Shown: piece after piece, positions 4,726-45,943 of the stretch
Position numbering within the stretch: the first letter of the stretch is position 1
How the letters are laid out: the number at the start of each line of letters is the position of its first letter
Assembly (NCBI GenBank): GCA_030374765.1
Contig: JARGXX010000025.1
Coordinates: 558,001 to 622,000 of the forward strand
Direction of reading: 5' to 3'
DNA length: 64,000 bases
Source: Agarophyton chilense
Lineage: Eukaryota; Rhodophyta; Florideophyceae; Gracilariales; Gracilariaceae
Made by a program: the position numbers and the translations under genes
Notes under the pieces: model-generated
What the model was told of the DNA's origin: nothing
The model's database searches: none
The model's input: the letters and a program-made list of their open reading frames with translations, nothing else

Positions 4726-4752
4726 AAGCAGCGGGACGCGGTGCGAGCGCAC

Positions 4753-8798: not shown

Positions 8799-8896
8799 AG
8801 GTTCCTTCTAAAACTGAATCAAGTATATGAAAGTTCGGAAACGTTGTATCAACATTAGCAATCATTGTACGAATAACTGACTGTGGAAGCGAACAA

Positions 8897-10297: not shown

Positions 10298-11128
10298 TTC
10301 GACGATGCAATGGGAATTGCTGCAAAACAACGAGTGGATGACAGAAAGTTGAAAACAGCGCAGCAAACAGGCGATGTGCACCTCCGAGAACGGGGGGGTG
10401 GGGGATGCGAACAGCTCCGGAAAAGAAGGAAGTGCGCCTTTAGAAGAAACGTTCACGAACCAATTACCCGTTGCAATTCGGGCCACCTCTCGCACTCACG
10501 CAGCTCGCGTGGGTGCCGATCGGGATGCTCCACAGCGGGTCCAGGCGGGAAGCACAGTGCTCAACTGGGAGCGATTGTCCGCACAACCGGCAAAGACAAG
10601 TGGTCGCCATGGGCGCTCAAAAATGCCAGCGCAGGGTCAATTGCGTTGCATTTCAGAGCGGGCCAATTACAAGATGCCCCGTACAGTTTTGAACGCGGTG
10701 TCCAACCAAAATTTTTCTTACCTGCAGTTGTGCCCCTGCTTGCCTTTCGCGTTGCGGCGTCGCCACGTACCTTAGTGGTTAGAGGGCTACTAGAGAGCAA
10801 TCTAACTCGTGGGCGCCCATGAACCGCAGCTGCTGTAAACTGCATTCCATTTCAGTTTTTTTGATTTCATGTTTCCCATTTCAACTTTGATCCGCGCTGT
10901 TATTTAGCTTGCTGTGAAACTATTCGCATATGTGTCTCTTCCTCGCATAAGGTTTATAAGCTCTCTTTGAAAACCTGTCACAGCTGCGAATCTGCTAGCA
11001 AACTTCCTCAACTTGTGACAAGGTTAAATTCTCTACAAATCGATAGCTTTAAAATATATAATTGTTCATAATTATGTGCACGTACAACACAACGCGACTG
11101 TTTTTTCAATTTCCATAGACATCTCCTT
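10298..11128. other. intergenic region, no supportable gene
   Basis: About 830 bp upstream of citrate synthase. The part near the citrate synthase start is GC-rich and includes a GGGGGGGTGGGGG run near 10394; the part near the ankyrin gene is AT-rich. Open frames here are short and lack domains. Confidence 0.5.
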
Positions 11129-26935: not shown

Positions 26936-29638
26936 AAACGATGCGCGAGAGTCGGGCTTTGGAAGACACTCTTACTCATTCTGCAAGAAATGAAGCCAAC
27001 AGAGATGCAATGCGTGAGAGTCGGCCTTTGGAAGACACTCTTACTGACTCTGAAAGAAATGAGGACCACATATATGCAATGCGCGCGAGCCGCGCTTTAG
27101 AAGAAACTTTTACCGGTTAGAAAGAAACGAGGCCAACAGAGTTGCAATGCGCCAGTCTAGAAGCCAAAAGCGCACTCCTGATCTACCACAAGGACTAGAA
27201 TCTGTTAGAACCTCTCAGCAAGTAGACCGCCGATTGTTCAATGAGCATGAAGAAGAGTGCTCTTTATATCTTGACCTTGGCTCTATGGACGTATCGTTAC
27301 CCTCCAGCAACGTGTTGCACTTTCGGGATGAGTGTTTTTTCAGTAGCTCGAGCACTAACCCTCTTTATGGAACCTGCTGCAACAAGGGCGCCCGGTTCCT
27401 TCGTCTGATTCCCGATCCCCCTCCTCTACTTCGCCACCTCTAGACTGACACTGGGCCTCGGGCTATAAACTTCCGAAATGAGATCCGGGCCTACAATACA
27501 GTGCTATCCATGGCTTCAGTCAAATCCAACTGGTTCAACCGGGGCTGCGAGAACTCTAGCTTTAACTCCACTGTTACTATGCAAGGACAGATCTATCACT
27601 TCATGGGCCCTCTTCTCCCTGCTCTTGGACGCCAGCCGGGCTTTCTCTCGGTTTTCATTGATGACCCCGACTACAATACCCAGGCTACCGTCTGGATGGC
27701 CTTCCTGCCTCGCTTCCGTCATCTAAATCTCTCTGAGCTCGGAAATCTGCTTCATGAATTCAATCCGTACGTACAGACCTTCCGTGAACTTCGGGAGTGG
27801 GCACTCAACGATGATCATCCCACTTCGTATCAAATGGTCATTTACGCAGATCACCGCCCGCGTAGAGAGATCTTTGGCCGCTACAATGGTCCTTAGGCTT
27901 CTGAAAATGTGGCGTTCATTCCCGGTAATGAAGATGGTGAATTTGGTTTCCGCGACATTGTAGTGTGTAAGCGAGGTGATCTAAACGCGAATGGAAGTGA
28001 AGTTTTGGAAACCATACTGGTCACCCACATGTCCTACGTTACCTTACCGTACGTCATTTATTTCGCGTATGGACAGGAAGGATGACACATGAGCCTCAGA
28101 TTCACTCCACACAACTCTACCACACAGATGAAGGTGACTCCTTTGATGTACTATTCATGGCAGCCGTTCCAGAGGCCCACCGAGTTTAGTACCATCCTGC
28201 ACGGCAAACGACAATTTCAGCAGTACTTGGTGGATCAGTTCTGTAAGGTCGAGTCCGAACGTCTGTCATATCTCCGTAACAACCAGCTGGAACTACAGGC
28301 ATCCGACTACACCTCCCTCAGAGAGAATCTGGGTGATTCTCTCTACGCAGTGGATGAGGCCGATTACGTGCGTGCCTGAAGACTGTTTGTGCTACCTTCC
28401 ACATTCGTCGGAGGCGACCGATGCATGAGAAAGCAACTACATGACATCATTTCCAAATCCAACACACTTGGAAACCCAGATATCTTTCTTACTATGACTT
28501 GTATTTCAATCTGGCCTGAGACCAGAGGAGCGCTCTTCCCCAGTCAGCAACCATAGGACAAACCCGATGTGTGTGCGCGAGTTGTTGGCCTAAAGCTCAA
28601 GGCTTTGATGGCCTTCATCATTGAGGAGAAATACTTTGGTACCGTAGCAGCCCATGTTGGCGTCATTGAGCTCCACAAAAGAGGTTTTCCGCATGCTCAC
28701 ATCATCTTCTTTTTGTGCTCTAGCTCTAAACACAGACTTCTTTCTCCGGAGAACAGTGAAATTTTCATTTCCGCAGAAATCCCGCCCTCAACCGACCCAA
28801 CTCTTCGCGAGTTGGTTTTGAAAAACATGATTCATACGCTCTGTGGCTCTGATGACCAATCTGCACCCTATATGGGTGGAGGAGTCTGCAATAAAAAAAC
28901 CGAAGGAGTTAAGCGCCGAGACTGGTCGCCTCGAGAGCGAGTACTACATCTCCTATCGCTGTCGATCTCCCGATGGTGGCGGTGAGTCATTGCAGTACAG
29001 AGTCCGTATTGGCCCTAAATTAAGTGTAGTATCGCTGGATAACTCTTGGGTCGTTCCGTACAGCGCCGATCTACTTCGCAAGATGGCATGTCACGTGAAT
29101 GTCGAGTTGTGCGTCTCTCGAGTCGGAGGAAAGCAGTACCTTTTCAAATACGTTTACAAAGGATCAAATCAAGTCACCATAGAAATTGCAGCAGCAATTG
29201 GTCGGTACAATGAGATCAGCACCTATCAGGACGCTAGATACGTGTCGGCTTCCGAGGCGGTGTGGCAGTTGTATTCTTTCGACATTGTGGACCACTATCC
29301 ACCTGTAGTACGAATCGACGTTCACTTGGAGCATCATCATACGGTGTTCTTCCGAGAAGGCGGTAAAAGGTTTTCTGCAGCTCGAGAAAGCCCTGCTACA
29401 AAGCTCTTTGAGTGGTTCGTGGCTAACCAAAAGTTCCCCAGAGCCCGTTATATTCGCTACGACGACTTTCCAAAGTACTTTACATGGAGCAAGTCGCCAA
29501 AACGGTCGCATCCAAGAGCTTGTTTAAGGCATCGCTTCGTTCCTCGGGGTCAGGCGTCCTCTTTTCTAGCTGTTCCAGTCGAGCTTTATGATTTCAATCG
29601 CGAGGAAGCTCATGTCATTTTCCGTATCTACGCCGTAA
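26936..29638 (+). pseudogene. Helitron Rep/helicase gene, 5' half (Rep domain)
   Basis: The start holds 23-residue repeats, followed by LDLGSMDV...LHFRDE and CCNKGARFLRLIPDPPPLL (the N-terminal zinc-like block of Helitron proteins). Then come GQIYHFMGPLLP, FGRYNGP and YLVDQFCKVESERLSYLRNNQ of the Helitron_like_N domain. The rolling-circle replication motif with two His is seen as RGFPHAHIIFFL near 28684-28715, and the Tyr region as YLFKYVYKGSNQ near 29140. Stops and frame changes occur, for example near 27115, 27441, 27895, 28083, 28378, 28555 and 28890. The frame stops at 29638 because element 1 begins; it resumes at 45944. Helitrons copy themselves by rolling-circle replication. Confidence 0.85.
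26941..27150 (+). repeat. tandem 69-bp repeat coding a 23-residue Helitron motif
   Basis: ATGCG marks unit starts at 26941, 27010, 27079 and 27147, with spacings of 69, 69 and 68 bp. The units encode RESRALEDTL...ARNEANRDAM-type repeats, seen at the start of many Helitron proteins. The final 68-bp spacing shows a one-base deletion that shifts the frame. Confidence 0.75.
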
Positions 29639-29661
29639 CGTCTGTGTTCTCGGAATGCTAG
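29639..29661 (+). repeat. left terminal inverted repeat of element 1
   Basis: 23 bp beginning CGTCTGTGTT and ending in CTAG. It differs from the left end of element 2 (49036-49058) at one position. Further GCTAG copies follow at about 29670-29685. Confidence 0.85.
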
Positions 29662-30251
29662 ATAAGTGTGCTAGATAGCTAGTTTTGTAAATAAAAAGCC
29701 AAAAAATCTAAGAATTTTGCAGATTGCGCTAGTTCGGCACCTGAAAAAAAAATGGAAATAATAACTCCATGCATCTTAGTGTTTTGACCACTTCATGCAG
29801 TTTAATCTTCATTTGCAGTTTTCTGGTCACTTTTGACCGCTCTAGGTGGAGATCCATACCAAGGCAGTCGTCGGTACCTTCTACCTCCTTACTGGCCCTT
29901 TTGCTTACTAGGCTCCAGCGTTCCACCGGGAGGGTATTTGAGGTTGAAGAAGTCCACCACCGCATTCTCAACCTCGTCCACCTCCCCACTGCTCAAGTTC
30001 CTCACACCCGGCTGCACCACCACACACACATTCCCACCCTTCTTCTCCACATCCTTACCAACCCTCCTCTTCTTCAGCCGACTCTCTCCAACTCCTCCCC
30101 TTTTCCATTTCTCTCTCCCCTTCTTCATCCCAGCCGGCTCCCCGCGTCTCCCTGGCGTCACCGGCGACCTTTTCGCTCTCCCCCTCTCCTCTCCCACCTC
30201 CTTCACATACTCTGAAACAACTGGTCAAAGAGCGGTATCATATCGTTACCT
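29662..30251. other. left subterminal region of element 1 and promoter of the membrane-protein gene
   Basis: It starts with CTAG-containing subterminal repeats. A pyrimidine-rich stretch (about 29990-30190) follows, which produces long but low-complexity open frames on both strands that I do not accept as genes. Confidence 0.45.
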
Positions 30252-31165
30252 ATGCGCAGCGTAGAAGGAAGACTAGCAAACCGGAACGCCTTCACTAAGA
30301 TGTTCAGTTACCAAACACTCTTCACATCGACCTCAACGTTCACAATCACACTAACTACACTCTTCGGAGTTATAGACCAAGCTCTGCAATATACGCTTCC
30401 ATTCAGATTCAACTCTCTCCTTCGGTTCATTCTCATAACGCTATTGAGGTGTCCTATCCAAAGCCTGCTACACATTCTCATAATCGAAGGAGGTGTACAA
30501 TATATAAACGCGTTATACGGGTCTCTACAAACTACGCCGTTCAATCACAACCAGCGATATACCTGGAAGAAACGAGCCTTTCTGGAATTCGGGGCTCTAC
30601 TCCTTACTCTACTCATCCCCCTCAACGCCATACTTTTCCTCGTTCACCGCTTCATTCCAATCAGCGGTACCCTTTCATCAGACTTGAAGACAAATTGTAT
30701 CGCCTTCTCCACAGGAGGGGCTGCAGTTGGCGCTTTGGCATATCTTCTCCAGCTTGTTTCTATATCCTTCTTTCCAGAGTCCTATCTTAACACAAAGTTC
30801 ACAATGACCCCGGAACCACGGAGAACCTCTTTTATGAACCTCTTTTATGAACCTCTTTTATGAACCTCGTGCTTGGCGCCCTCTCCCACTCTTTTCAACA
30901 GGCTTTATTCATATCCAGTCCGGCTGTAACCTTCCGACTACTCGGTATGAGGCTGTCGGCATGCACTTTCGCTGCACTCTCTTTAACCGCCTTCTCCACC
31001 TCTCGCATTGAGGGCCCTGGTGTTCCTATACTGCTTGGTAACACAGTGGATGTCGTAATCTTGATATCTTCGACAGTTGTCATTCACTATGAGAAATTGA
31101 AAGCAAGTGCTGCTCTCACGCGTTTCAATCCAGTTGTTCAGGAGTTTCTACTGAAAGACGACTGA
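30252..31165 (+). pseudogene. polytopic membrane protein gene broken by a 13-bp triplication
   Basis: From the ATG at 30252 the first frame gives about 200 residues with at least three to four hydrophobic segments (e.g. FGALLLTLLIPLNAILFLV and AAVGALAYLLQLVSISFF). The second frame (about 30867-31165) continues with more hydrophobic segments and a short basic/polar tail. Between them CTCTTTTATGAAC occurs three times in tandem (30828-30866). With one copy the two frames join (…RRTSFMNLVLGAL…) into one protein of about 295 residues. I do not recognise the family; no transporter or channel signature is evident. It is cargo of element 1, at its left end. Confidence 0.6.
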
Positions 31166-31246
31166 TCACTATTACAAGAAAAGGGGACTACTCCACATAT
31201 TACCTCAAATTGTACTCTTTATTGTTCAATAGGTAACAGATACTAT

Positions 31247-32440
31247 CTAGTCGTCGTCGTCATCCATTATCATACCGCCATCTTCATAGTCTCCATCTGT
31301 CTTAGCCGAGTTGAGACCCATCCCAGGTTCATCATCCTCTTCTTCATACTCCTCTTCCCCACTTTCAACAACTTCCATTTTATAATCTTCATCCAACTCC
31401 TCATCCTCATCTACCTGGACGTCTTCATCATCACCCTTGTTGGAATCATCCTCTTCGAACTTAGGCCGAAATGCTGGTTGCCTATGCACTGCGTTCGGTA
31501 GCTTGTACCCATCCGGTACCAAGTACATGTGATATCTCATGCAAACTTCCTTAACAAATGCATCCTCGTATCCAGCTCCAGCATGAAACACATCTCCTCT
31601 TCCAATAAAAATGGAGTACGGCGGAATCCTGAACTTCCTCACTACCATCGTCCGAGACAGCCGCTTCAAGCTCCTGTCGTCGGGCACGTACATGTTACGT
31701 GACCTCTCACAAACCCAAAGCATAAACGAACTCGCTCCCGACGCCATCATGAAGAACCCTGGAACCTCTCCGACGTCCTTCTCGGCATCGGTCAGTCCTC
31801 GAAAGTCCGTATGTAACACCTGCCTTGGACAGCCCTCCGCCGTACACAGCACTCGCCCCCCTGTTTCAGGGGCATACATCCTCTTCTTCCCCGACCGGTT
31901 GTTGCACAACCGAAGAGCGGCCGCAATCTGTCCAAACCTCGCATCCAACAATGCCCTTTTCCTCACCATTAAAACGTTGTTCTCGTCCCCCTCCACAGAA
32001 TCCACAATCCCCACCTTCGTCGTAATGTACCGCCCAACTCCCTTCATTCTATCTCCAGCGTCTCTCTCCTCACCAGCGTTGATTACAGGGTCCCATTTCT
32101 TTCTATTCCCTTCAATCGTCAAGTCCAGCTGGTTCAAGAAATCCGTCTGGAATAACTCTAGCAAAGTCCCAGTCACATCCCCATCGAAGTTTACTCCCCT
32201 CTTCTTCGCCTCATCCGCCATCCCCTCGTCCGTGGCAAACTCTTCCAGCACACAAAATCCTTTCTCCATCAGCTCACTTCTCTTAGTCGCGAAGTACTCG
32301 CAGGCCAAGTCATCCCTCTCCATTGCTGCCATCCATATCGCCTGCTCTTCATTCACAGGGTGGTCCTTCGTCGGTAGAATCACCCCAAGAACCGGTTCTT
32401 TCGTGGAACCCAGTTCCTTGTGCCTGTTATGAGCAGCACG
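31247..32440 (-). CDS. 2-oxoglutarate/Fe(II)-dependent dioxygenase-like domain (3' part of the ParB-oxygenase frame)
   Basis: It shows the double-stranded beta-helix signature: H-x-D in RQVLHTDFRG, a distal His in GRGDVFHAGAGYED about 75 residues later, and an Arg in CMRYHMYLVP 16 residues on. These are the two iron His residues, the iron Asp and the 2-oxoglutarate Arg. The C-terminus is very acidic (long E/D runs). The frame opens directly after a single TGA that ends the ParB-like gene. There is no ATG before 32332 (M-A-A-M-E-R), so either translation starts there or, more likely, this is the last domain of one fused protein. TET/JBP-type oxygenases, which oxidise modified bases in DNA, have this motif set and occur on fungal DNA transposons. 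The substrate here is unknown; AlkB-like or other families are possible. Confidence 0.65.
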   Translation of the reverse strand, partial: RAAHNRHKELGSTKEPVLGVILPTKDHPVNEEQAIWMAAMERDDLACEYFATKRSELMEKGFCVLEEFATDEGMADEAKKRGVNFDGDVTGTLLELFQTDFLNQLDLTIEGNRKKWDPVINAGEERDAGDRMKGVGRYITTKVGIVDSVEGDENNVLMVRKRALLDARFGQIAAALRLCNNRSGKKRMYAPETGGRVLCTAEGCPRQVLHTDFRGLTDAEKDVGEVPGFFMMASGASSFMLWVCERSRNMYVPDDRSLKRLSRTMVVRKFRIPPYSIFIGRGDVFHAGAGYEDAFVKEVCMRYHMYLVPDGYKLPNAVHRQPAFRPKFEEDDSNKGDDEDVQVDEDEELDEDYKMEVVESGEEEYEEEDDEPGMGLNSAKTDGDYEDGGMIMDDDDD

Positions 32441-34933
32441 TCAATAAACCGCATGGTGCACACTTTTCAAGTCTTCTACCCTCAAGCACTGCGCCCTGTG
32501 CTTGTTCCGTAGGTAAATCATCTGCATCCAGAGGTGCTGATGCTTCACTCCATTTTCACCCGCCGGCCACTCGCTCGGAAGTGCATTCACCAAGTACACC
32601 CACGACATACCCGACCACCCCGCATATGGTCCCGCTCTCTTCAGCCCCTTCGGAACACCCTCCGGATTATTTTCTTCGAAGCCACGCATTTGCACACCTT
32701 CCTCCTCTTCGTCCCCTACAAATGCACCCTGCCCCCCGTCATCATCCAGTTCATCCTCACTCGATGAGAACACATTGAGTACATGTTCCTTCAAAAAGCG
32801 CTTCAGCTCTTTCCTGCTCCTCTTCTTGAACACATCCACCACGTCAGCCGGTATTTGAGCCGCAGATGTGCCCACCGTCTTTCTCCTCTTCCTCTTCCGC
32901 TTTGAAGGCTGTTCATACTCGCGTTCATCATCACTAATGACCACAGCCTTTCTCTTCCCCTTTCTCTGTCTAGGTTCCATCACCCTCTCACCCGCAGCAT
33001 CCAGCCCGCACTCAGTACCTTTTCTAGTTCTTGTGATGCGTCTGGGAACCACGGTTTCCTGGTGGGGTACAGACTCCCCAGCACTAGACGAAGGAACATT
33101 CACAGAAGGTGGCACCTCCACCACATCCTTCTCCGCACTTGGGGACGCCAGACTCACTTTCAGACCGCCTTCAATCCGCCTTTGTGCGATTTTCATCCTC
33201 TTCGACACCAACCCCGGCCACAACCGCTTCGGACCACTGAGCTCCATCTTCGCCGTTTGCATGCAAAGGTACTCCCTTAAAGACACCTCGTTCTTTCCCA
33301 TCACAATTGTGCTGTCTAGAAACTTCCCCGCCGCCAGACCCTTCTCCTTTCCCGCCCTTTCGCATAGTTGGAACATTCCTATGGCGCATTGGAAGAACTG
33401 CTTTCGCGGCTCCTGGAAACGTCCCATATTCCCCGTAGAACCCATCCTCACCCTCACATGTAGCTGCAAACAACGGATTGCGAAACGGAATATTTCGTCT
33501 TGGAGTCCTAAAAACAAGTCACTCGACACATGCGCAAGCGTTAGCACTGGACCCTCCTTACATACGTTCTCAAAGAACTCCAGGAGACCTTCGCTCCTGA
33601 CGAATTTCAACCCAAGAGTCGCATAGCGATTCAAGTGACGCAAGCTGTAGATTCCTATAGCTTCGCTCGTCTTCAGCGCCCCAGCTATCCGTGTCGGATT
33701 AGGGTCAGCCAACTGGGTTCTCTTATCTTCAATCAAGTTGCAAATGAAGGACACTGTGGAATGAACCTTGTCGGCGAAACTCATCTTCAACACATTTGAA
33801 CTCATTTCATTGAGTACATTACCAAGACCGAGCACTTCGTTCAGCGATAAAGGCTTCCGGTCCTTGCGTTTCCAAAGAACGACATCAAGAGACCGCACAA
33901 TTTCCAACCACTTTCTCCCTTCAGAGGGATCATTCTTCAGATCTCGCAGAAACAAGACGCGGTGATGACCGTCAATGAGTATGACAGGCACCACTACCCT
34001 CCCATTGTGAACAATTTCACTGAAATCTAATTCCATTCCCCCGACGATGGCAACAGCAATCGACCCTGCCGACGCAAGCCAGCCAAACGTTTTGCACTTT
34101 GCCATCGTCGCCGCCTTGTGTTCCGCATTCACACTTCTGACAGTCTTCTCGGGGATTTGTATGTCATCTATGTCCACAATCAAGCGGCCCTGGTCATGGT
34201 CTGAAACAGAGATCTTCTTTTCCACGAGAGTCCTATCCACTTCATGCGAAGGAACGGCATCGCCGTCATCAAACAACTCCAACTCGGGACCGGTGTGCGA
34301 ATCCCCACGTACATTCACCGCTGATCCCACCTCCACAACATCTTCATCAGAATCATCCACTATCGTCACCCTATTTTTCCGCTTGACGGGTTGCTTCATG
34401 GCCGGCGGCACTGTTGTTGGCTGTGCCCTCTTCCCCCTCAATGGCGTAGCGGACTCCTTTGAGGGGGTCGCGCTTTTGGGAGTCTCCGGCCGAGGAGGCC
34501 CTGGAGTCAGCACAGAGGAGACGCGTGTCATCATCGAGGTATCCCATGCGTATATACCTGCCGACACCATATCTTTCAGCAACTCCGGCGGCTCCTCTGC
34601 TCCTTTGAAGTAGTACGGATACTTGGAGTTGATCCCCTCCTTAATTTCAGTCCTCCAGATGGCCACCAAGTCCTCTCCCAGCTTCGCAGACTCGCGCAAC
34701 GAATGGCCATGCATCGCTCTGCAAAGCGCCTTCCCGGCCGCTCCACTGCCTTCAACACCTCTCAACTCTGCAGTGCCAACCATAGTACCCTTCTTCTTCC
34801 CTGTCCTATCTGCCAGGAAAAACGCCACCCTATCCCCACCAGCCAGATTGTTTCCCGATGTAGCTTTTCGCGGAGTGGCGCGTGGAGTACCCCGCGGAGT
34901 ACCCTTCGCTTTCGCTTTGCCTCGATTCATCAT
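32441..34933 (-). CDS. large nuclear-type protein with a ParB/Srx-like domain
   Basis: 830 residues from tandem Met codons at 34933. Residues 1-30 are basic with GTPRGTPRATPRK repeats. Residues about 250-375 read like a ParB N-terminal (ParB/Srx) fold: a DIDDIQIPEKTVR strand, then VPVILIDGHHRVLFLRDL with DGHHR at 321-325 in place of the GEHR/GxxR nucleotide-binding motif, then LSLNEVLGLGNVLNEMSSNV. A helical region follows (about 380-580), then basic and acidic tracts with KRKRKRRK near residue 700. ParB domains bind CTP/ATP or act as nucleases and can spread on DNA from palindromic sites. The protein ends at TGA 32441-32443 and the frame continues without another stop into the oxygenase. A CGA-to-TGA change would explain the break, so I infer an ancestral fusion of about 1,230 residues. 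Confidence 0.65.
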   Translation of the reverse strand: MMNRGKAKAKGTPRGTPRATPRKATSGNNLAGGDRVAFFLADRTGKKKGTMVGTAELRGVEGSGAAGKALCRAMHGHSLRESAKLGEDLVAIWRTEIKEGINSKYPYYFKGAEEPPELLKDMVSAGIYAWDTSMMTRVSSVLTPGPPRPETPKSATPSKESATPLRGKRAQPTTVPPAMKQPVKRKNRVTIVDDSDEDVVEVGSAVNVRGDSHTGPELELFDDGDAVPSHEVDRTLVEKKISVSDHDQGRLIVDIDDIQIPEKTVRSVNAEHKAATMAKCKTFGWLASAGSIAVAIVGGMELDFSEIVHNGRVVVPVILIDGHHRVLFLRDLKNDPSEGRKWLEIVRSLDVVLWKRKDRKPLSLNEVLGLGNVLNEMSSNVLKMSFADKVHSTVSFICNLIEDKRTQLADPNPTRIAGALKTSEAIGIYSLRHLNRYATLGLKFVRSEGLLEFFENVCKEGPVLTLAHVSSDLFLGLQDEIFRFAIRCLQLHVRVRMGSTGNMGRFQEPRKQFFQCAIGMFQLCERAGKEKGLAAGKFLDSTIVMGKNEVSLREYLCMQTAKMELSGPKRLWPGLVSKRMKIAQRRIEGGLKVSLASPSAEKDVVEVPPSVNVPSSSAGESVPHQETVVPRRITRTRKGTECGLDAAGERVMEPRQRKGKRKAVVISDDEREYEQPSKRKRKRRKTVGTSAAQIPADVVDVFKKRSRKELKRFLKEHVLNVFSSSEDELDDDGGQGAFVGDEEEEGVQMRGFEENNPEGVPKGLKRAGPYAGWSGMSWVYLVNALPSEWPAGENGVKHQHLWMQMIYLRNKHRAQCLRVEDLKSVHHAVY

Positions 34934-35968
34934 TTGAATCGGATCGTAGTCGGTCGAGGTTGCAAATGGTCGCAGAGCGCTTTGAGCCTTTTATGGTATA
35001 CAGACTAAGACGTATTGGATCGAGCTCCTGTGGTGGCGACTATCCGGAACACTCCCGAGAGCAGTTCTTTGCAATCAGCCTGAACTACGTCCGCTTAGTT
35101 TCAACCTGAGCTACGTCCGCTTAGTTTCAAACTCAAGAAACTCCTTGTCTCTTTCCATCACAAACACGCCTATTGGCTTAGTAGGCGATACAAGAAAATA
35201 AAATTAAAAAATTAAAAATATCCTGACGGCCGACAGAGGTGCGCTCCGACTTCATCGTGGGTCCCGATGAAGTCCCCGCGCACCTCTGTCGGTCGACATA
35301 ATAGATATAATTTTGTAATGTTTGGAACGCTCAGGTGTACACAGTGCACTCTGTCGGCTGACAGAGGTGCGCGGGGACTTCATCGGGACCTCCGATGAAG
35401 TCGGAGCGCACCTCTGTCGGCCGACAGTCGACCAACATCTGAGAAACGCATCATGCGTGATGTTATGGCGTATTTGTCGGCCGACAGGGGTGCCCTGCGA
35501 CTTCATCGGTCCACCGATGAAGTCGCAGCACACTCCTGTCGGTCTACATAATACATATAGTTTTGGAACGCCCAGGTGTTCACGGTGCACTCTGTCGGCC
35601 AACAGAGCTGCGCTTCGACTTCATCGGGGGTCCCGATGAAGTCCCCGCGCACCTCTGTCAGCCGACATAAAACATACAATTTTGTACTTTTTAGGACGCC
35701 CTGGTGTACACGGTGCATTCTGTCAGCCGACAGAGGTGCGCGGGGACTTCATCGGGACCCCCGATGAAGTCGAAGCGCTCCTCTGACGGCCGACAGAATG
35801 CAACCAGGATAGCTGCGAAGTCGTTCCGCAACAACCGTTCTTCCATGCGCGCTCCTCAACCGTACTCACAATCTTTCCGTACCCACCCGCACCCACCCGC
35901 ACCCGCTGCTCTCTTTCACTCAGGCTCTCGTGACGACCGCCCGTGAGGTTGTTTGAACACGTACATAA
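34934..35968. promoter_or_regulatory. divergent intergenic region of element 1 with palindrome array
   Basis: It separates the ParB-like gene (-) from the methyltransferase-SET gene (+). A direct 26-bp duplication (CTGARCTACGTCCGCTTAG...) lies at about 35078-35130, then an AT-rich stretch, then five palindromes. Position between two head-to-head genes suggests joint control. Confidence 0.55.
35224..35795. repeat. array of five ~75-bp palindromes
   Basis: Copies lie at 35224-35298, 35352-35426, 35475-35548, 35593-35667 and 35721-35795, with starts 118-128 bp apart. Each has outer arms of the type TGTCGGCCGACAGAGGTGCGC and inner arms GACTTCATCGG / CCGATGAAGTC around a 3-5 bp centre. The arm ends (TGTCGGCCGACA) are themselves palindromic. 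The spacers are also related to each other (ATAAAACATACAATTTTGT..., GTGTACACRGTGCAYTC). The copies differ at several bases while keeping pairing in most places. Likely roles are binding sites for a dimeric DNA-binding protein encoded by the element, such as the ParB-like protein or the transposase. Confidence 0.9.
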
Positions 35969-38900
35969 ATGGCTCCAGAATCCACGAGAACTTCTTCATC
36001 GCCTGCAGCAGACACCTTCGAAATGGGTAAACTGTTTGGTACGGGGGATGAAGTTATCATGGCGTGTCTGGATTTGCGTGATCGTTACGCATCAACGAAG
36101 CGGGAGGAAGATGAGCCGCGAAAATTGGGGCACACTGCATTCATCGATTTCGCAATTGCCAATCGCCACATCCTACCGGAGACCGCGAAGTTTTTTTATA
36201 CTCTCCTAGGTCCCGACCACACCAATTACACAGAAGATGAGCTCCGAGTTGTAGGAATGAGGGGCTCGAACTGTCAGAATTATTTCTCGGCGAGGTTGCT
36301 GGATATAAGGGATGGGGACCCAGATAGGCGCGTGAGGGACTTTTGGAACGCGTACGAGGCGGTGGAGTTCAAGGGCATCCCGAAGAATGTCACTTTGACA
36401 GAGTTCTTCAAAGGTCTGGATACAACCCGAAAGAAGGCGAGCAAAAGCCGGGCTCCATTCGCGACCGACTTCCCGACAATGTTCCAGAGGTTGCTGTTCC
36501 TCAATTGTATTCAGTCGGTCTCTATGGAGAAGAGAAGAGTCTCCCGTAAGCGAAGAAAGCGGGACAGAACCTACGATACGCCATTTTCGAAGGTGGCGAT
36601 TTATGACAAACCAGTAGCTCAGCGTGTGTGCTTTGGTGTGCAACTCGTCAATAACGCGTGGGACAGCTTCGCCCAGTATTTGGGATTCCCTGGCGTGGAA
36701 ATCATGGTTTTGCCCTTTATCCATCTACGATATTCTGATATGCAGTTCCAGGCAATCGGAAACAGAAGGGAGGGGTTCTCTCACAAGGACATGGCCCAAC
36801 GACTCCTTCCTGGTAGAAATCGTACTTTATTGGAGGAGGATGTCGTCCCATGGGCGTGGAACATGCCGGAGTACGTTGACACTCCACTTCGTATGTTGGC
36901 CAAAGAGTTTCTCGCTGACATGCACAAAGTGGTGGTGAATGACCAGCTTTACTCTATATCAGCTCCGGAAAGATGGGACGTTCTAAAACCGTTTACATAC
37001 ACTTTGCCTAGAGTGTTTGCGGAGAGATTCGACTGCTTCTCGAACTCTCTTATCTCTACCATCTTGGAATACATATCGCCACTAAAGCTGCGAGGGAGTG
37101 TGGAGGTGGAAGTGGTGGCTGCGACAAAGGCGGAACCTACTATGGTTATGGAAGAAGACGAGATAGAAGTTGTACCCCCTGAGAAAGATTCGGAGGCTCC
37201 GGTGGTGGAGGGTGGAGAGGGAGTGGAGGGTGGGACCGGGAATGAGGAAGAGAACATTGGTGTTGGTCAGCATTCTTCCACAGCTGGACCAAGGTCGGTC
37301 GAATCTGAGTCCGTGGATATTCTGCCGCCTCACGACCTTACCTCTCTGGATGATATAATGTCTCTCCAAAAGTGCGAGTCGGAGATGGATAAGCACTGTC
37401 GAATGTACAATTGTACTTTCGAGAACCTGGTGGAGATTGACCAGACATTGCGCAGCAATGGGGTCTCTCCGATAGGGAAAGTGCAGTTGGTTCTCACGGA
37501 CCCGCCGTATAATATACGTGCGAAGAAGAACAGGAAAAACAGCTGGTACGACGTTCTTAACCGGCAAGACATGGTGAAGACGGCGAAGCTCATCTCTAAA
37601 CTTCTGCGTCCGGGAGGGCATTTCGTTATATTCTGCGCGATTGAGCAGGTTAACGAATGGAAAGAAGTGTTGGGTCGAATTGGTGCCAAGGATGAGAATG
37701 GACAGAAGAGCAGGTCGTTTGTCGTGGACAAGGTCCAGCTGCACTTCATTCGCTCTCAAGGCAATCCGATGCGTAATCCCGGACGTAGTTCGTGCTCCCT
37801 GTTTCCCGGAACAGAGTACGCCATTCATGGAGTTCGCAGCGGGTTGTCCTACGCCGAACAACATGGCATGGTGAACTATGAGAACTTCAGCTATGTACCA
37901 TCGCGATATCCGGGTTACCATAGCGTGATTGACCAAGTGCCTCCCATGTCGAATGGTGAAACTCTTCTATGGAGAAGGAAGAATGCCAAAGGAGCAGTTA
38001 CGTATCAGAAAGTGCGGGCGGAACAGAAGTCACGCGCTTTGCTGAAGGAGCTCATCAGCAGGTTTTCTCAGCCGGCAGACATAGTGGTGGACCTCTTCGC
38101 CGGAACATTTTCAACGGCCATGGCATGCATGGAACTGGAAAAGCACCGTCAGTTTCTAGGGTGTGAGCCAGATCCGCAGTGCTTTGCTCATGCGAAGCAC
38201 GCTGCTACAGTAAAATTTGCGTCATGCATGCGGAACAACGAGATGGACATTCATATAACGCAAGATGTTCGGAACGCTGTGACTCGAGTGACATGCTTGT
38301 TTCCGGACGTCGTCATAAAGCGTTCGAAGTCCTGGAAAACACCTACCGGATTTCCCGAGCATCAGATGTTTCCACCCCATATCGTGGATTTTCTCTCCTC
38401 CATGTGGCAGGATAAGAATATATCGGAGATTGGGCGACGGCAACCGCTGTATGAGTGGCCAAGAAGTTTTCAAAGAAAGATGTCACTGTTGGATTGGAAT
38501 GCTATTATGGCAGTGGAGGCGACAGTACGTGGTTGTCGGATTGCAAATGCTGGAGTTAGTGTGTACACAACACGCCGGGTGATACAAGGTGAGACTGTTT
38601 GTTACTTTTACGGGACTTTGGTGTACCATGATCTTTCAAAGCGGAAGGAAGTTCATAAGGCATACGGAGGGGGGCTATTGAAAGCGACTGCTGATCGTTT
38701 TCGGCAGTACGCGATGGAGATAAGCGTCCGAGGGGAAGTGTTTCACAAGCTACCAGGAAGAATTAGTGGGGTGTCTCTTATTCCGGTGTGGATTGTCCCT
38801 GCTCCATTTTGCTTGGGGGGAACAATTAACGACCCCAAGTATGTGGAAGGGGATAGGGACAGGGATGCGGTTTAAGACGGGTTAATGAGACGCCGAACTG

Positions 38901-39079
38901 CAAATGTTCGGGTCATCAGAACTCCGGGGACGGGGCGGACCCCATTTCAGTTGAGAGACTATAAATTGCTTTCTGTGCAAGCAATTCGAGATATAGAAAA
39001 AGGAGAGGAGCTGTTCGCGGATTATGGGACAGAGTATATCTGGAGTATGAATAACACGCCAGTCATAGTAATCGATTAA
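35969..39079 (+). CDS. beta-class DNA amino-methyltransferase fused to a SET domain (one in-frame stop)
   Basis: From the ATG at 35969 the frame runs 968 codons to TAA (38873-38875) and continues in the same frame to 39079. Residues 1-380 are a helical region I do not recognise, followed by an acidic linker. Residues about 495-745 are a DNA methyltransferase with motif IV first (VLTDPPYN, D511-P-P-Y514), then LLRPGGHFVIFC and, 200 residues on, motif I (VVDLFAGTFSTAM) with a GCEPDPQCF end. This order defines the beta class of N4-cytosine/N6-adenine enzymes. Residues about 850 onward are a SET domain (GVSVYTTRRVIQGETVCYFYG). Its second half lies beyond the stop (NVRV...LLSVQAIRDIEKGEELFADYGTEY). 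The stop sits inside SET; CAA-to-TAA would explain it. The roles inferred are DNA base methylation plus histone lysine methylation. Confidence 0.82.
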
Positions 39080-39401
39080 AAGTGCATCGCTTTTGTTACT
39101 TTACTTCATTGTAGTGTACCAGATATTGTGGGCTTTTACTATGTTTGTCGCTACATATAACTTCAAAGCGTGACGTAGTACATATGCTAAAGGAAAGTCA
39201 TGTACACCGAAGGAGAATACTTTTCCAATATCTGGTGCGTTCGTGCGCATATTTAAAATATCTGAAAAGTTTGGGGGTTTTCTGAGAACACGAAAAGGGT
39301 GGAGGTATATTTTTGGAAGCAGAATGTTTCGAAGCTTCTCTCCCATCCATCGCATTGCAACGCGTGGAAGACCATACCACGATCGCTCTCTCTCTTCAAC
39401 C

Positions 39402-41996
39402 ATGGCTCCGAAGCGCAAATCGAGAAGCGAGAACACTAGCGGGCGCGGTACAAAATCACGGCGGCATGGAGGGGATGCGGAGAGCGGAAGGGACAAGGGG
39501 CGTAGGCTCCAGGGCGCGAGTGGAGAGAAGGGAGGCGTGCGCCTGAGAGGTAGATCAAGGCAAAATGGTGGGGAAGGAGAGGCGAGTGGGGGCAAGGGAA
39601 AAGCTGTTCGCGCAAAGGAGACGGTGACGGAGGAGAGTGCGGAGCAAATCACGTCGCGTACGGAGCAAATCACGTCACCTACGGGAGAGATGGTGCGGAG
39701 CGGCGATGGAAAACGGGATGGCGTGCGAAGCAACCGCACGCGTGTACCTAGAAGTGGATTGCGGGGGAGGACGAGCAGAGCTCCAGGGAGGACAAGGAGA
39801 GGGGATGCATCCGAGCGGGCTCTAAGTGCTGTACTCACGTCTTCAGCTGATGTGGAGCCGGTAAATCCATGCTCTGCACCTTAAGTAGGTGAAGAGATTC
39901 CGAATGAGAGGACGAAGGGGCGTAAGGAGGGAGAGAGAATGATCGGAGAACGTGGATCCCGCCTCAGAGGTGTTGAAGAAGCAGGGGCATTGTTTACGGG
40001 TATGAGGGAAGAGGAAGGTGATGATGAGATACAGCAAGGGAGAATAGAGAGTAGCCGTGGTGGGGAGGGTAGAATAGGTGGACCCAGTAGTGGTCTAATC
40101 GCGGGCGCAAGAGTCGTTCGAGAGAGAACAGAAGGAGAGAGTGTTGGAGTTACCGCGGAGGAACAGGCGGAAAGATGGGAGGGGGCGAACTTGGATTACG
40201 TGGAAGAAAGGAGAGAGCGTGCAAGGGAAAGAATGGGGAGTGTTCGAGTTACAGGAAGAAGAGCGATAGACGAAAGGGAAAGCAGAGAAGTGCATGTGAG
40301 TGAGGGGGGGAGAAGGGGGTTTGCTGTAGGGAGAACACGTGGTTCAGGGGAGTAAGGCGATGGAAGAGCAGCAGTTCTTTCTCATCAGGGAGAAGATGTC
40401 GAGCATTTGCCACCGAGGAGAGGGGTGTGTTTGGGAGTTGAAGGGTTTGAGGTGAACGCAAGGCGAGGGACGCCGGAAGGTATGCGAGTAAGGAGAAACA
40501 TTGTATTCACAAGGAATAATGATAACGGGGAGAATGCAAATTTAAATGTCGTGGAGAACGCCGTCCGTATGGTGGAAGATGAAGCAAATGATGATGACAT
40601 TGGTTTGTTGCCGCGGTCGATGCTAATTGAGAAGATGAATGTGTTGAAGGGACAAATGGGACGTATGAAGGAAGACAGCTACAGTGTGATGGTGAGTTTG
40701 GAAATGACCCAAACGGAGCTGGATCGGGCGAGGGAGGAAATGAAGCAGCAGAATGTGCTGATTGAGAGTTTGAGGGAGGCGTTGAAAGGTAGAATCGCTG
40801 GGGAAGGGAGGGGGGAGGGAGGCGTGACGCGGCGACGAAAGTATGACATTGGAGTGCAGGAATGCTTTTATGGATTTGCACGTCGTGTGTATGATAGGAT
40901 TCTTCATTATGCAAAACTGGAGGCATCGGAACTTTGCTTCGACACCGAGAATGTGGGTCGAAGCTGGAAGAATAGAAGTGAGGCGGTTGGGGAGAGTAGG
41001 GAGGAAAGTATGTTTGTGGTGGGAGAGAAGGAAATGGTTCCGAGATGTCCAATTGAGGTTGCATATGAGATGAGACCGTATACGCCGTCGACAGAGGGCG
41101 GGAGCCATTTGTTGTTGAAGCACGTGGTAGAGACTGAGTTAATGGGAGAGAAATGGGAGTGGATAAGGGAAGCGGGGAGGAGAGAGGAGGGCGTGGAAAA
41201 TGTAAGTGCGGATAGGTGCTTGAGACAGAGGATAAAGCAGACATTGAGCGATGTGGTTGGGGTGCGGAAGCGAGCAGCGCGTGATAAGCTGTTTTCCATG
41301 CTTGGATATGATTTGATCGCGAAACGAGCTAAGGTGACTGAAGGGACGGAGCTTTGGGCGGAGTTGAAGAAGCAGATTGAGGAGGCGCAGGAGAAGTTGA
41401 TGGGGTCGGGGGAGGATGGGAGAGGTAAGCTGTGTGCGTGGAGAATGAGTGCGATTGAAGATATTACTTATTCTGGATCGAAGGTGTCTGAGAACTTGGA
41501 GGACTTTGGTGAGGCAGATATGTATTTTCGAAATCAGGTGTCGTTGAAAGTGTTGGAGGAGTTAATGGGCTACGCGGTAGAGAGTCAAAGAAATGGAGAA
41601 AGGCAGTATGTGGATGGGACGGTGATGCATCTTGCGCGACTTGATGCATGGATTGGATGTGTGGTGACCACGATGGGTAGAGACGTTGGGCGGGGAGGCC
41701 AAAGGCAACTTTTGTTCTCGACGCTGTTTGGGAGGTTTCTGCCACTGGCTGTTGAGAACATATTGAGGGTTGCCTGGAACATGGTGAAGGATGAGTATGC
41801 TGAGGAGTTTGAGAATGATGGATTCTGTGGAGGGAATCGTAGAGATGTGAGTGGGAATAAGGAGAGAATCGCGACGGTTGGGCTATGGATACCGTCGAGA
41901 GAGAAGATCTATCTGGCGATAAGGGAGGAGTTTTTCATGCAGAATCTCACGAGAAAACTTGGAGCGGTGTTAGATTGCTATATAGCGTCATGTTGA
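39402..41996 (+). pseudogene. orphan ~865-codon gene of element 1 with two in-frame stops
   Basis: The ATG at 39402 (ACCATGG context) opens a frame that, apart from TAA at 39882 and 40353, stays open to 41996. Part 1 is very basic and disordered (KRKSRSENTSGRG, many Arg/Gly). Part 2 is polar and charged. Part 3, the longest, has a coiled coil (MLIEKMNVLKGQMGRMKEDSY...LDRAREEMKQQNVLIESL) and then a well-folded-looking region with spaced Trp/Cys and several Leu-rich helices (LLFSTLFGRFLPLAVENILRV). I recognise no family. Codon usage is G-rich on this strand, which produces pyrimidine-rich shadow frames on the other. A DNA-binding or accessory transposition protein is possible but not shown. Confidence 0.6.
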
Positions 41997-42143
41997 ACAG
42001 AAGAACCACGGTTCAAGCGCTTAGCGTTGGGGAGTAGGCAAGGAGTGGGAGAGTGATAAGGTACGGGGGGATAAGGGGGTAAGGAGGTGGAGCAAGATGG
42101 GGGTCGGCTATGGAAGAAAAGCAGCGGTGACTATTTTATTGGA

Positions 42144-45100
42144 TCATGTGCCTTGGGAGGTATTATTATGGGTGCCACCCAGTGGTGGTGTTGTGCCACC
42201 AGTGGTGGTGTTGGAGAAGTAGGGCTTGGCAGTTGGGTCTCGGTGGAATCTGTTGAGGTAAAATCGATGGAAGCGCCAGTGCAATCGAGGGGTGAAAGGG
42301 GGTGCGGGGTAGTTTTGGCGAAGTACATGAACGGGGCCAAGAATAGAAGACGATGGTACGAGGCCGAACCAGGGGGAGACGTTGTCGGAGTTGGAAGTGT
42401 TTGAGATAGGAAGGGGGTGGGCGGTGTGGTTTTGTTCGTCGTCTGTTGCCCATCGGAGGCAGATGCAATTGAGAGAGACATCGACTTGATCCTGGGGTGG
42501 AACGAGTTCGAGGAACTGAACGAAGGCGAACTCGTTATGAGTGGAAGGGGAAGAAGGGGTGGTGAAGCGAAGAAAAGAGTTGAGCTTGCAGACCCAGGCA
42601 GTGGGAGTGGGGTTGGAGAAGCTGGAACCGGCAACGAGGATGTGGGAGAACTTTGGGGTTTTAGAGGGACCGAGGGAGGGAGCAGCGAAGATACGTTGAA
42701 TGAGTGGGAGAGGGGGATCTTTGACGGCGAGCTCGTTTCGATCGGCGATGTAGTCGTCTAGGGTTGGGGTGAAGCCGCCGACGACGTATGCGGAATTGAC
42801 GAATGTGAGACGGGTTTGGCGGAGGGTGGGGGAGTCCTGGTTGAGAGCTAGTGTTTCGAGTGTGAGTGTGACGAAGGAGGGGAGTGCGAGGGTTCCAATC
42901 TGTGAGATGATGGCGATAGTGTCTGGGGAGAAGAGGTCCTGACGGGAAGAGATTGTTGAGTGGGGGTTTGCTCGAAGGAATTTGTGAGCGGTGATGAGAT
43001 CGGAAAAGGAGGTGTGCTTGCCATTACGGACGAAACCTGGTTTGCGGGCCTGGAAGGAAGGAGGAGGGGCATTGGAGGATGAGGTGACGGAAGGATCAGC
43101 GGAGAGAGAAATCCAATTGTTGACGGCATCGGAGCGTTCGATGGCACGGATGGTTTCGTTGTGCGCGGTGGGTCTGCGCTTGGAGGTTCGGGAGTAATGT
43201 GCTTTGAAGAGGGTATGGGCTTGTTCGAAGATTCCTGCATCGTTGAAGTGGAGACCCCCAAAGCGTCGAATGTCTTCTACGATGTGATCGAGGAGGTGGA
43301 ATTTGAGGGTGCCAAGGTTGGAGGTATGGTATGGACCGAGAACATCGACAGCTCTGTGCTTGAAGGAATGGATTTGGGAGGCGAGTTTGGCAAGACGAGA
43401 AGTGGTCCATTCGGGGACGGAGTTGTAGCACATGGAGGTGAGGAGGAGGTCTGTGTACTTGGAGAAGACGGTTGTGATGGGAGCCGAATTGGCTTCGTCA
43501 CAGCAGCGGTCGAAGAAGGCGCCGATGAAGGGGAAGACCACGTCGAGGGCGCGGTAGTCTTTTGCTTCTAGCATGCCGCGGACGCCGTCAGTTGTGAAGA
43601 AGCCGTTGAGGGACTGCCCGCTTTCGGAAGTAGAGAAGTCGATGTGGAGGCCGGTAGCTGGGGAATGATTTTCGATGGCGGTGAGGATGAAGTTGGAGTG
43701 CTTGGGGATCTTGGGGATGGAGGTGCGGACGGAGTGGAAGGAACGGCGGGAGTTGGTGGAGCTGATGGTGGTGAAGAGGTGTTCTGATCTGAGACGTTCG
43801 ATGGCGGCGAGCTTGATGAGTTTGGAAACGCCGAGGTTGAAGTTGTGGAGGGGTTCCAAGGGGAAGATGTTGTATGGGGTGAGGAGGGGGGTGATGTTGA
43901 AAAGGGGGTAAGACTCGAAGAGGGAGGGGTATTTTGCGAGGGAGAGGGAGTGGAGTGCTTGGAGAGCTTGTTCCTTGAAGTTGCGCGAGACTCTTGGCTT
44001 GCGGGCGAGGAGAGCTGCTTCGGAGTCCTTGAGGAGGGAGAAGTGTTTGTTGCGGGCTGCAAGGGTGAGGGGAAGAGATCGAGGTGGATGGGCGTGAGAG
44101 TGTTGGTGGAGTTGTGAGCGAGGGACAGAGCATCTGTGGCAGGGGTGCTGGGGGCGGGTGCCGTGGGAGATGGCGAGAATATCCTTTGCCTCGGGAATGT
44201 CTGCGCAGTAGCTGGCGATGATGGGGTGGCATTGACGAAGAACGCCGTCTGCGTCGCGGAAGGGGAAACCGGGGAGGGCGGAAGAGAAGAGAGGTTGAAG
44301 GAGGGAGGAGATGGTCTGCTGTATGAGTTCCATTTTTGTTTGGCGGGGGATGGAGGAGGAATGAGTGATGATATCTGCATCTGGAGAAGGAGTGATTGGG
44401 GTGAAGGAGGTGGGAAGATAGCCGAGGAGTGTGAGATTGTCGGAGATGCATTTGCAGCGAAAGGAGTCGGAGATGTTGAGAAGGGTGATGTGGAGGGGGT
44501 AGGAGGTGATGGAAGAAGATTTGAGAGAGGTAGAGGACTTGTCGGAGTAGATTTGGACGAGGCCGGTGAAGGAGTCGATACCGGTGGAGTGAGGGAGATG
44601 CCAGACGATGTTATCTTTTGTGGACTGCATGATGGCGGTCTTGAGTGCGGGGACGACTTTTGAGCCGAGGGTGGCTGCCATGGGGTGTGCGAAGGCGGGG
44701 GAGCCGGAGGCGGATGTTTGGGAGATGGGGTGGAAAAAGGTGTTCTTGAAGTGTGCGGGGGCGAGCTGTTGTTTGAGGACATGGATTGCGTCTTTCTGGA
44801 AGAGGGTTGCGGAGAAGCGTTTGTGGGGATCGAAGATGGTGGAGGGGGCGAAACCAATGGACCTGATTCTCTGGTGGAAGAGGTCTGCCTGGAGCTCGAG
44901 GCATTGCTTTGCGGAGGAGACTGAGTTCTGGAATGTTGATTCGGAGAAGTGGGGATCATTAAGGAGAGTGATGAGTTCGTCAGCCTTTCGTTGTCAAAGC
45001 TTGGAGGCGATGGAGGAGATGTAGAGGACAATTTTCTCCAGGTGGGGGTTGTCGAGGGGGGGAGTGGAAGGAGGGAGGGGGGGAGAGAGCGAGAGAGGAG

Positions 45101-45420
45101 GGGGAACCGAGAGGGGCAGTGGCGACGTGGATGGCGTCCTGGGTGTGGAGGGAGAGAGAGAGCTGGTCTTGGAGGTAGGAGTCATGGCGTGCGAAAGGGA
45201 CGTTGTCGGAAGGGCGATGTGAGGGAGGAGGATGAGGGGGGAGTTGTGAGGTGGACTTGTGGCGTTTTGTGCGGGGGGGGGGGAAGTTGGGTTCATTTCC
45301 GCCAGGGCAGAGGAAGCGCTTGTTGGCGGAGAGGCGATGAGGGCACTTTCTCTGGTGCCGCTGGAGGGCGGGGATTTCTCGGGCGAAGAAGGAGCAACCG
45401 TTGAAGCAGCAGGAAGGCAT
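42144..45420 (-). pseudogene. Plavaka-like (EnSpm/CACTA-related) transposase of element 1
   Basis: The start is the ATG at 45420, which opens MPSCCFNGCSFF...ALQRHQRKCPH, a C2H2-like finger found at the N-terminus of Plavaka transposases. A Pro/Ser linker follows, a frame change within a C-rich run near 45070, and a TGA at 44994-44996. The frame then stays open to 42144. It holds QIYSDKSSTS followed by YPLHITLLNIS, the conserved Asp block, then GFPFRDADGVLRQCHPIIASYCADIPE and PCHRC, PLEPLHNFNLGVSKLIK, FKHRAVDVLGPYHTSNLGTLKFHLLDHI and the C-terminal HEFAFVQFLELV/WF-type block. These match the KDZ/Plavaka group described from fungi. One frameshift plus one stop suggest this copy is not autonomous; an intron could in principle remove part of this. 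Confidence 0.78.
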
Positions 45421-45659
45421 GGTGGGTGGAGGAGAGGTGGTGGGAAAGAAGTTGGTAGGGGGCGTAGACGGAGAGAGAGTATGGCGCACACAGGGCACGT
45501 GACAGGGGAGGGCGGTGGAGAATAATATAGAATTCAAGAATGCAAGGCACGTGAGGTCTGCCAGGTCGGGCTGCGATTCTATTGCGATTGATATGGATGG
45601 TACTAAATGTTCAATTTCTATTTTGAGGTCCATTTTGGGACCGGTTGTTTGTACTAATC

Positions 45660-45943
45660 AGTCAATCTAGAGCGCACAAAGATTGAATCTGCTCCTGCAC
45701 CACTTCTCTACCTTTACCTTTAAACTGCGGCGACAGAAAGATTCACGCTAGTTTTACCTCCATCAAAACTAGAAAAACTGCAGATATGTGCTAGTTTTCC
45801 TTCCCATACAAACTAGCACTAATGAACGAATGAAAATATTTTCGGAAATTAACACCTCCAAATTTGGATAAATTCACGGGTTTTTCGGCCATTTCAATTC
45901 GTCCTTTTTTGACCACTGAACTAGCATTCTGAGAACACTGATG
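45660..45943. repeat. right subterminal repeats and right TIR of element 1
   Basis: The motif ACTAGC/GCTAGT occurs about six times between 45745 and 45925, then the 23-bp TIR (45921-45943). Subterminal repeats of this kind are transposase-binding sites in CACTA elements. Confidence 0.75.

Follow-up and report, generated by a model that had tools for sequence, protein, structure and literature searches.

A 64,000-nucleotide stretch of the genome of the red alga Agarophyton chilense (assembly GCA_030374765.1, contig JARGXX010000025.1, positions 558,001 to 622,000), here called the window, contains a single mobile unit with exact ends at positions 29639 and 45943. The explanation that we favour, and to which we give about an even chance of being right, is that this unit is a copy, now decayed, of a giant autonomous transposon of the Plavaka type carrying a conserved two-gene chromatin module, through which the carrier would keep its own chromatin state. 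The first gene of the module is predicted to encode a CcrM/DpnA-type DNA amino-methyltransferase (DPPY motif, probably acting on N6 of adenine) fused to a SET domain; the second would encode a large protein with ParB-like and oxygenase-like parts, which probably binds DNA. Together they may mark the DNA and histones of the carrier and edit marks already present. On the transposon, the module would maintain the chromatin state of its carrier against silencing by the host, and in a second family of the gene pair, located near contig ends, it would keep chromosome ends in a defined state.

The two ends had been given by an initial annotation made from the sequence of the window, and they proved right to the base. 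The terminal inverted repeats are 23 bp long, identical at 20 of 23 positions, and flanked by a 2-bp target site duplication, AA. Excision in silico of the element together with one AA rejoins the open frame of a helicase-like gene (...AHVIFRIYAVSPREGGRYFFL; ...FNREEAHVIFRIYAVSPREGGRYFFL). This target, at window positions 28831-29661 and 45979-47092, is presumably a gene of the Helitron/PIF1-type helicase kind and, given such a target, the element is perhaps itself nested in a second mobile element. Both ends were also read in three further copies (on contigs C10, C117 and C135), whose duplications are TA, TA and AT; in all four copies with both flanks read, the duplication thus has the 2-3 bp of Plavaka. 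The right end of the window copy, TGATG, is an exact fit to the Plavaka pattern CATCA..TGATG and its left end starts with CGTCT; the termini of the three other copies are CGTCT..TGACG.

The transposase that had been claimed for the element matches the Plavaka profile PF18759, with E-values of 4.1e-22 for the window copy and 1.4e-22 for the copy on C10; its frame is broken in the window and open on C10 and C117. Membership of the Kyakuja/Dileera/Zisupton (KDZ) transposons was rejected because of this match to the Plavaka profile.

The two full-length copies that were read, on C10 and C117, are 18,810 and 18,774 bp long. The window copy is a deletion derivative of this 18.8-kb element, with about 2.3 kb gone at 30205/30207, and its four main genes (ParB-oxygenase, methyltransferase-SET, coiled-coil and transposase) are all broken. 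The C10 copy has open frames of 1137 amino acids for the transposase, 1043 for the methyltransferase-SET protein and 1247 for the ParB-oxygenase protein, and the C117 copy likewise; the coiled-coil gene is interrupted in these two copies as well. Reassignment of a stop codon was not adopted as the cause of the in-frame stops, because several copies hold long frames without them. Additional open frames occupy the left part of the C10 copy (element positions 1219-3811), one of which we take to resemble ketopantoate reductase and another a membrane protein; two of these frames were searched, the first in part, and gave no Pfam match. They are perhaps captured host genes.

The search for other copies that the initial annotation had proposed revealed a multi-copy family. 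In the genome (79.76 Mb in 135 contigs), at least 54 matches to the ParB part (80-96% identical, the window copy itself excluded) and at least 47 to the methyltransferase (94-98% identical) were found, both counts being lower bounds that include some partial matches; the oxygenase part gave 105 matches, with diverged ones and pieces counted in. A methyltransferase match from this list lies within 9 kb of 36 of the 54 ParB copies, a Plavaka match within 16 kb of 47, and both accompany 33. When either methyltransferase list is counted (the one of at least 47 matches or the PF01555 one), 45 of the 54 have a methyltransferase nearby. From the best 40 of 126 candidate left ends and the best 40 of 117 candidate right ends, 15 left-right pairs could be formed. 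The ParB part lies inside 13 of them, with lengths of 10.2-18.8 kb, and these 13 include six with a methyltransferase match from the list of at least 47 and ten with a PF01555 match. The two paired copies without a ParB match measure 6.8 and 7.7 kb; the 6.8-kb copy (C1:396570-403358) retains a piece of the oxygenase.

Curated profiles support the writer-type protein, in which a putative DNA methyltransferase and a SET domain are joined. The profile hidden Markov model (HMM) searches that had been suggested for both domains gave matches above cut-off: PF01555 (N6_N4_Mtase) at E 2.4e-17, with DpnA at 1.4e-9, and for the SET domain of the full-length C10 copy 28.0 bits against a Pfam cut-off of 22.4. 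The SET end piece in the window copy also exceeds the cut-off. Both domains share the 1043-residue open frame on C10, and the predicted fusion thus holds for other copies; in the window its frame has one stop. DPPY is found in 10 of 11 copies, ahead of FAG (11 of 11), as in DpnA and CcrM. Bacterial N6-adenine enzymes carry this motif (PMC8885841), which makes N6-methyladenine (6mA) the most likely product. A protein search with the methyltransferase-SET sequence, with scoring of the 8000 candidates that had the most words in common with it, found no relative outside the genome, and a search of viral contigs with three proteins (methyltransferase-SET, ParB region and oxygenase) found no relative either. 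Phage matches to the methyltransferase are mostly annotated as plain methylases (best 30 of 63).

The divergent partner had been described as a ParB-like domain joined in frame to a 2-oxoglutarate (2OG) oxygenase. The joining stands, in that other copies hold one frame of 1247 amino acids, interrupted by a stop in the window; the two families are kept here as motif-level assignments, since the HMM searches suggested for ParBc and 2OG-FeII oxygenase gave no profile match for either part. The motif DGHHR, a variant of ParB box II, is present in 11 of 11 copies. The residues HxD...H...R are those of 2OG-Fe(II) oxygenases; HxD occurs in 10 of 11 copies, and the distal His and Arg in 11 of 11. There is no match in the genome to PF02195 (ParB_N) and no Pfam match to the ParB part up to E 10, the nearest profile to the DGHHR region being a PHROG endonuclease (E 0.028). 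A protein search with the ParB region returned no relative outside the genome, a bacterial-genome search with the oxygenase part only returned none, and phage and plasmid searches with the ParB and oxygenase parts gave chance-level matches only (best E 2). The sole outside relative of the oxygenase part, P0001, is 49% identical over 49% of the query; it retains the distal His and Arg, and Arg replaces the His of HxD, the first iron-binding one. With this replacement, and no 2OG-oxygenase family detected in the searches made, the role of possible eraser or base-oxidiser proposed in the initial annotation is left unsupported.

Another reading takes the oxygenase-like part for a TET/JBP dioxygenase of PE type, which would make the element one more TET-bearing PlavakaB with a function against 5-methylcytosine (5mC) and some extra domains. 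Completeness of HxD...H...R in 10 of 11 copies is in line with this, as is the description of PlavakaB elements in Agaricus and Gymnopus whose TET cargo is a very divergent PE-type dioxygenase (PMC12730594). Nevertheless we consider it unlikely: searches of Pfam, NCBIfam and PDB sequences gave no match, with Tet_JBP and TET structures sought up to E 10 in Pfam and the PDB sequences; P0001 lacks the first His; and the host is a red alga, in which the copies show little CpG C>T signature.

A second family of the same gene pair is found near contig ends. For this set, 37 methyltransferase places were picked by hand from 116 PF01555 places, with transposon copies and short decayed pieces excluded; it and a third set (below) are described from search matches. 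A SET domain follows the orientation of the methyltransferase at 33 of the 37 places. A ParB-like segment lies within 25 kb at 18 places (37-42% identical to the transposon family, 34% in a fragment on C107) and at none of the other 19, and an oxygenase-like segment at 15 (53-57% identical, 42% in a fragment on C116). Divergent orientation holds for 17 of these 18 pairs, with a gap of 3.4-9.9 kb between the genes; the exception is C31. A single open frame, reaching 1335 codons, holds both the ParB-like and the oxygenase-like part, and in many copies the methyltransferase and SET domain share one of 1130 or 1141 codons; that frames of 1130 to 1316 codons are open despite such divergence between the families suggests long-term selection. 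The distance to the contig end is known for 25 of the 33 SET-bearing places: it is always below 70 kb, and in 21 cases at most 22 kb. Contig C95 (3,000,461 bases) has at base 1 a telomere repeat of CCCCTAAA type, 4 kb from a pair, and carries another pair at its opposite end. For 17 of the 18 pairs, none of the best 123 of 235 Plavaka candidates comes within 25 kb. The third set consists of dispersed ParB-like (22-35% identical) and oxygenase-like (37-47%) pieces, mostly with stops, and looks older than the second.

Close to the end of contig C21, six ParB-like segments (C21:639414-666884) are regularly spaced at about 5 kb, as if part of the module had been amplified in tandem.

The initial annotation had held that ends of this type enclosing none of the genes, or the genes recurring away from the transposon, would mark the cargo as accidental. 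Both situations occur, as left ends with a transposase and without the genes and as genes without the transposon; yet the genes recur paired as the same two fusions, head to head in 17 of 18 cases. The recurrence of both fusions together, mostly divergent, in lineages that are about 40% (ParB) and 55% (oxygenase) identical speaks for a pair acting as a unit, which is probably a conserved module rather than accidental cargo.

An alternative view of the same distribution is that host or subtelomeric genes were captured and are passively carried, their native job being done at chromosome ends, where they might for instance mark or protect subtelomeres, with little gain to the transposon. Pairs with equal profile scores do lie near many contig ends, one of them beside a telomere repeat; the full-length copies hold passenger-looking left frames, the membrane-protein-like one included; compact relatives, described below, lack the two genes; and the ratio of nonsynonymous to synonymous polymorphism (pN/pS) of the methyltransferase-SET gene within the transposon family is not below 0.87. 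This capture appears possible, if somewhat doubtful, because the low identity between the families in both the ParB and the oxygenase part indicates that a separate version has probably been kept open on the transposon for a long time. Several copies have open methyltransferase-SET and ParB-oxygenase frames, and among the 15 end-to-end copies paired from the best-scoring ends the ParB part is kept in 13, and the methyltransferase in ten of these.

Between the two head-to-head large genes stand five palindromes, as initially described, each 76 nt long. One palindrome, when folded, gave -42.1 kcal/mol (z -10.8). The arms are well conserved in a comparison of 11 giant copies (96 arms) and six compact loci (100 arms); conservation is lowest at the first base and at three positions in the middle (55-65%). 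Giant copies have 1-7 complete palindromes and the six compact loci 6-11. The compact layout, seen at five places (C73, C99, C79, C31 and C3), consists of the left end (element position 1 to 682-685), the array, about 450 nt and the transposase from window position 42729-42730; a total length of 5-6 kb seems likely, with right ends outside the sequence read. At 11 array loci (L014-L024), only the transposase among the five proteins of the element gave tblastn matches. Of 184 palindrome matches, 41 places were tabulated; 16 of these have no ParB or methyltransferase match within 6 kb, and 12 of the 16 have a Plavaka match within 8 kb.

The presence of palindromes and transposase in cargo-free compact elements argues that the array is part of the transposon proper, the giant form having cargo on both sides of it. 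The transposase would be the first candidate to bind the array, because it is the sole protein common to the giant and compact forms. The array may have been derived from the compact form and would most likely bind the transposase or another protein of the element; in the giant copies it could double as the common upstream region of the two cargo genes. The initial proposal of a DNA-spreading factor with its own sites in the array is left unsupported: no ParB family was detected in the searches made, the palindromes are shared with compact elements without the genes, and among the matches listed (of 184) no palindrome is found at the contig-end pairs.

The compact elements could also be internal deletions of the giant one, with array and cargo always having been together and the palindromes perhaps serving as sites of the ParB-like protein in trans. 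Giant and compact copies are 94-98% identical over their common left end and transposase, deletion derivatives do exist (the 6.8-kb copy on C1 and the window copy itself), and the arrays are longer in the compact loci than in the giant copies. We regard this origin as possible but rather doubtful, as the compact copies at five places have one and the same transposase junction and, where it was read, one left junction, with no ragged ends. In addition, the contig-end pairs have a ParB-like protein and no palindrome among the matches listed, and one giant copy has a single palindrome.

Several observations weigh against the favoured explanation, that a giant Plavaka-type element carries a conserved chromatin module. 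The usual SET motif is NHSC; the SET domain here lacks it, all 11 copies having NDP in its place. The ParB and oxygenase labels have no profile or PDB support in searches of Pfam, NCBIfam, PHROGs, PDB, phages and plasmids, and the compact relatives carry the array without the two-gene module. Two contig starts were read, and one has telomere repeat; on the other, that of the pair-bearing C32 (56.9 kb), the initial 52 bases are not telomeric. The pair located at the right end of C95 has a Plavaka match at a distance of 9.4 kb. Variation among the transposon copies (three genes in ten copies, C117 being omitted as a near-twin of C10) belongs here as well. There are 861 substitutions private to one copy and 34 shared, a pattern as expected after a recent burst. 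Private pN/pS is 0.65 for ParB-oxygenase, 0.87 for methyltransferase-SET and 0.70 for the transposase; the shared values, from few sites, are 0.52, 1.03 and 0.27. These ratios point to no clear selection on the cargo within the family, and none on methyltransferase-SET; copy variation is uninformative about selection because the copies form a star. Private C>T changes per site are 0.043 at CpA, 0.070 at CpC, 0.082 at CpG and 0.056 at CpT, a weak CpG excess with no hotspot, which gives no sign of silencing by 5mC and weakens the role of a 5mC eraser. An origin of the stops in repeat-induced point mutation (RIP) or in decay of 5mC was rejected, as there is neither a C>T hotspot nor a RIP-like pattern.

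A stronger and more tentative proposal, which we regard as rather less than probable, is that of a mobile write-and-edit chromatin module: one protein would write a bacterial-type DNA mark and a histone mark, and its head-to-head partner would bind DNA and oxidise or remove marks, giving a heritable state both on a giant transposon and beside telomeres. The positions of the features in the window copy are collected in the table, together with examples of contig-end pairs.

Table. Features of the element in the window (window positions) and example pairs of the contig-end family (contig positions).
Feature	Position	Strand	Basis
Target site duplication AA, left copy	29637..29638		Flank comparison
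Left terminal inverted repeat, 23 bp, 20/23 to right end	29639..29661	+	End comparison
Left subterminal region common to giant and compact copies (best 40 of 126 candidate places)	29639..30205	+	Genome search
Deletion junction; C10 holds about 2.3 kb extra here	30205..30207		Comparison with C10
Membrane-protein-like frame, remnant; C10 version without Pfam match	30216..31165	+	Open reading frame and Pfam
ParB-like/oxygenase-like gene, 1228 codons from first ATG; stop at 32441-32443; single frame in other copies	31250..34933	-	Open reading frame comparison
ParB/Srx-like segment, DGHHR, motif-level	33674..34228	-	37-42% identity to contig-end family, 34% in one fragment
Oxygenase-like segment, HxD...H...R, motif-level	31250..32440	-	53-57% identity to contig-end family, 42% in one fragment
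Five palindromes of 76 nt with arm TGTCGGCCGACAGAGGTGCGC-nnn-GACTTCATCGG, spaced most often by 128 nt	35223..35797		Arm comparison
Methyltransferase-SET gene; stop at 38873-38875; 1036 or 1043 codons in other copies	35969..39079	+	Open reading frame and profiles
N6_N4_Mtase domain PF01555, DPPY	37481..38194	+	Pfam
SET domain PF00856, divergent; NDP where NHSC is usual	38552..39028	+	Pfam
Coiled-coil-like gene, two in-frame stops	39402..41996	+	Open reading frame
Plavaka transposase PF18759; one stop and a 1-nt insertion frameshift; 1137-residue frame open in C10 and C117	42147..45420	-	Pfam, alignment
Right terminal inverted repeat ending TGATG	45921..45943	-	End comparison
Target site duplication AA, right copy	45944..45945		Flank comparison
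Example pairs of the contig-end family	C95:4035-14985, C76:10709-23273, C89:4456-14845	head to head	Equal profile scores in many copies

Outside the element, the window contains ordinary host genes at 3487-10495 (TFIIH p62, MINDY deubiquitinase and citrate synthase) and, at 16791-19076, a retroelement fragment with a reverse transcriptase and RNase H (RVT_1, 2.6e-32). An Rfam search of the window at gathering thresholds gave no match. Elsewhere in the assembly, phycobilisome linkers gave 13 matches, which mark the genome as that of a red alga; three of them are doubled 185,684 bp apart on C39, where the plastid genome was apparently assembled as a head-to-tail dimer.

No published title or abstract was found that describes the gene pair. 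Giant Plavaka elements are reportedly expanding red-algal genomes, for example that of Bostrychia, and are probably of the same broad kind; that report lay outside what the search returned, and a prior description is possible. Giant Plavaka repeats, TET-bearing Plavaka and SET-bearing transposons are already known, and the combination of a methyltransferase-SET gene with a ParB/oxygenase-like one was not found in the literature search. The occurrence of the pair both on a transposon and near contig ends would make the question of why eukaryotic mobile elements keep epigenetic enzymes directly testable. On the transposon the pair may counter silencing, and at chromosome ends it may set a local state. 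If the write-and-edit proposal is true, selfish DNA and chromosome ends would both be keeping a eukaryotic counterpart of a modification system.

Among systems in print, the TET-bearing PlavakaB transposons of mushrooms (Kojima 2025, PMC12730594) share with the present element a Plavaka transposase, ends of the CATCA..TGATG type in so far as the right end of the window copy goes, a target site duplication of 2-3 bp and a cargo predicted to edit DNA modification. The word ParB is absent from the main text of the article. The present family differs in that the ends of the other copies are CGTC(A/T)..TGACG, that its cargo is methyltransferase-SET and a ParB/oxygenase-like fusion without detected TET/JBP similarity, that the host is a red alga, and that it has a palindrome array and a pair that also occurs near contig ends. 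The TET/JBP elements of KDZ type, treated in the same article, are likewise transposons with a presumed DNA-modification enzyme, but their transposase differs (PMC12730594); SET-bearing transposons of oomycetes are also named there. Subtelomeric gene duplication has been described in other red algae (PMC9812998), in an article that does not contain the word ParB.

In Amoebidium, giant Plavaka repeats reach 50 kb (PMC11244446); they resemble the element in being very large Plavaka-flanked units with intron-poor cargo, some of it with red-algal relatives; in contrast, many of their cargo genes encode tyrosine recombinases, and neither 'ParB' nor 'SET domain' occurs in the main text of that report. 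The N4CMT of bdelloid rotifers, with its chromodomain, and SETDB1 (PMC8885841) offer a parallel of another kind, in which a bacterial-type amino-methyltransferase is joined to eukaryote chromatin machinery and acts on repeats. The rotifer enzyme has a chromodomain as reader and the motif SPPY, for N4-methylcytosine (4mC) (PMC8885841), whereas the predicted protein described here has a SET domain in the same chain and the motif DPPY, and is borne by a transposon.

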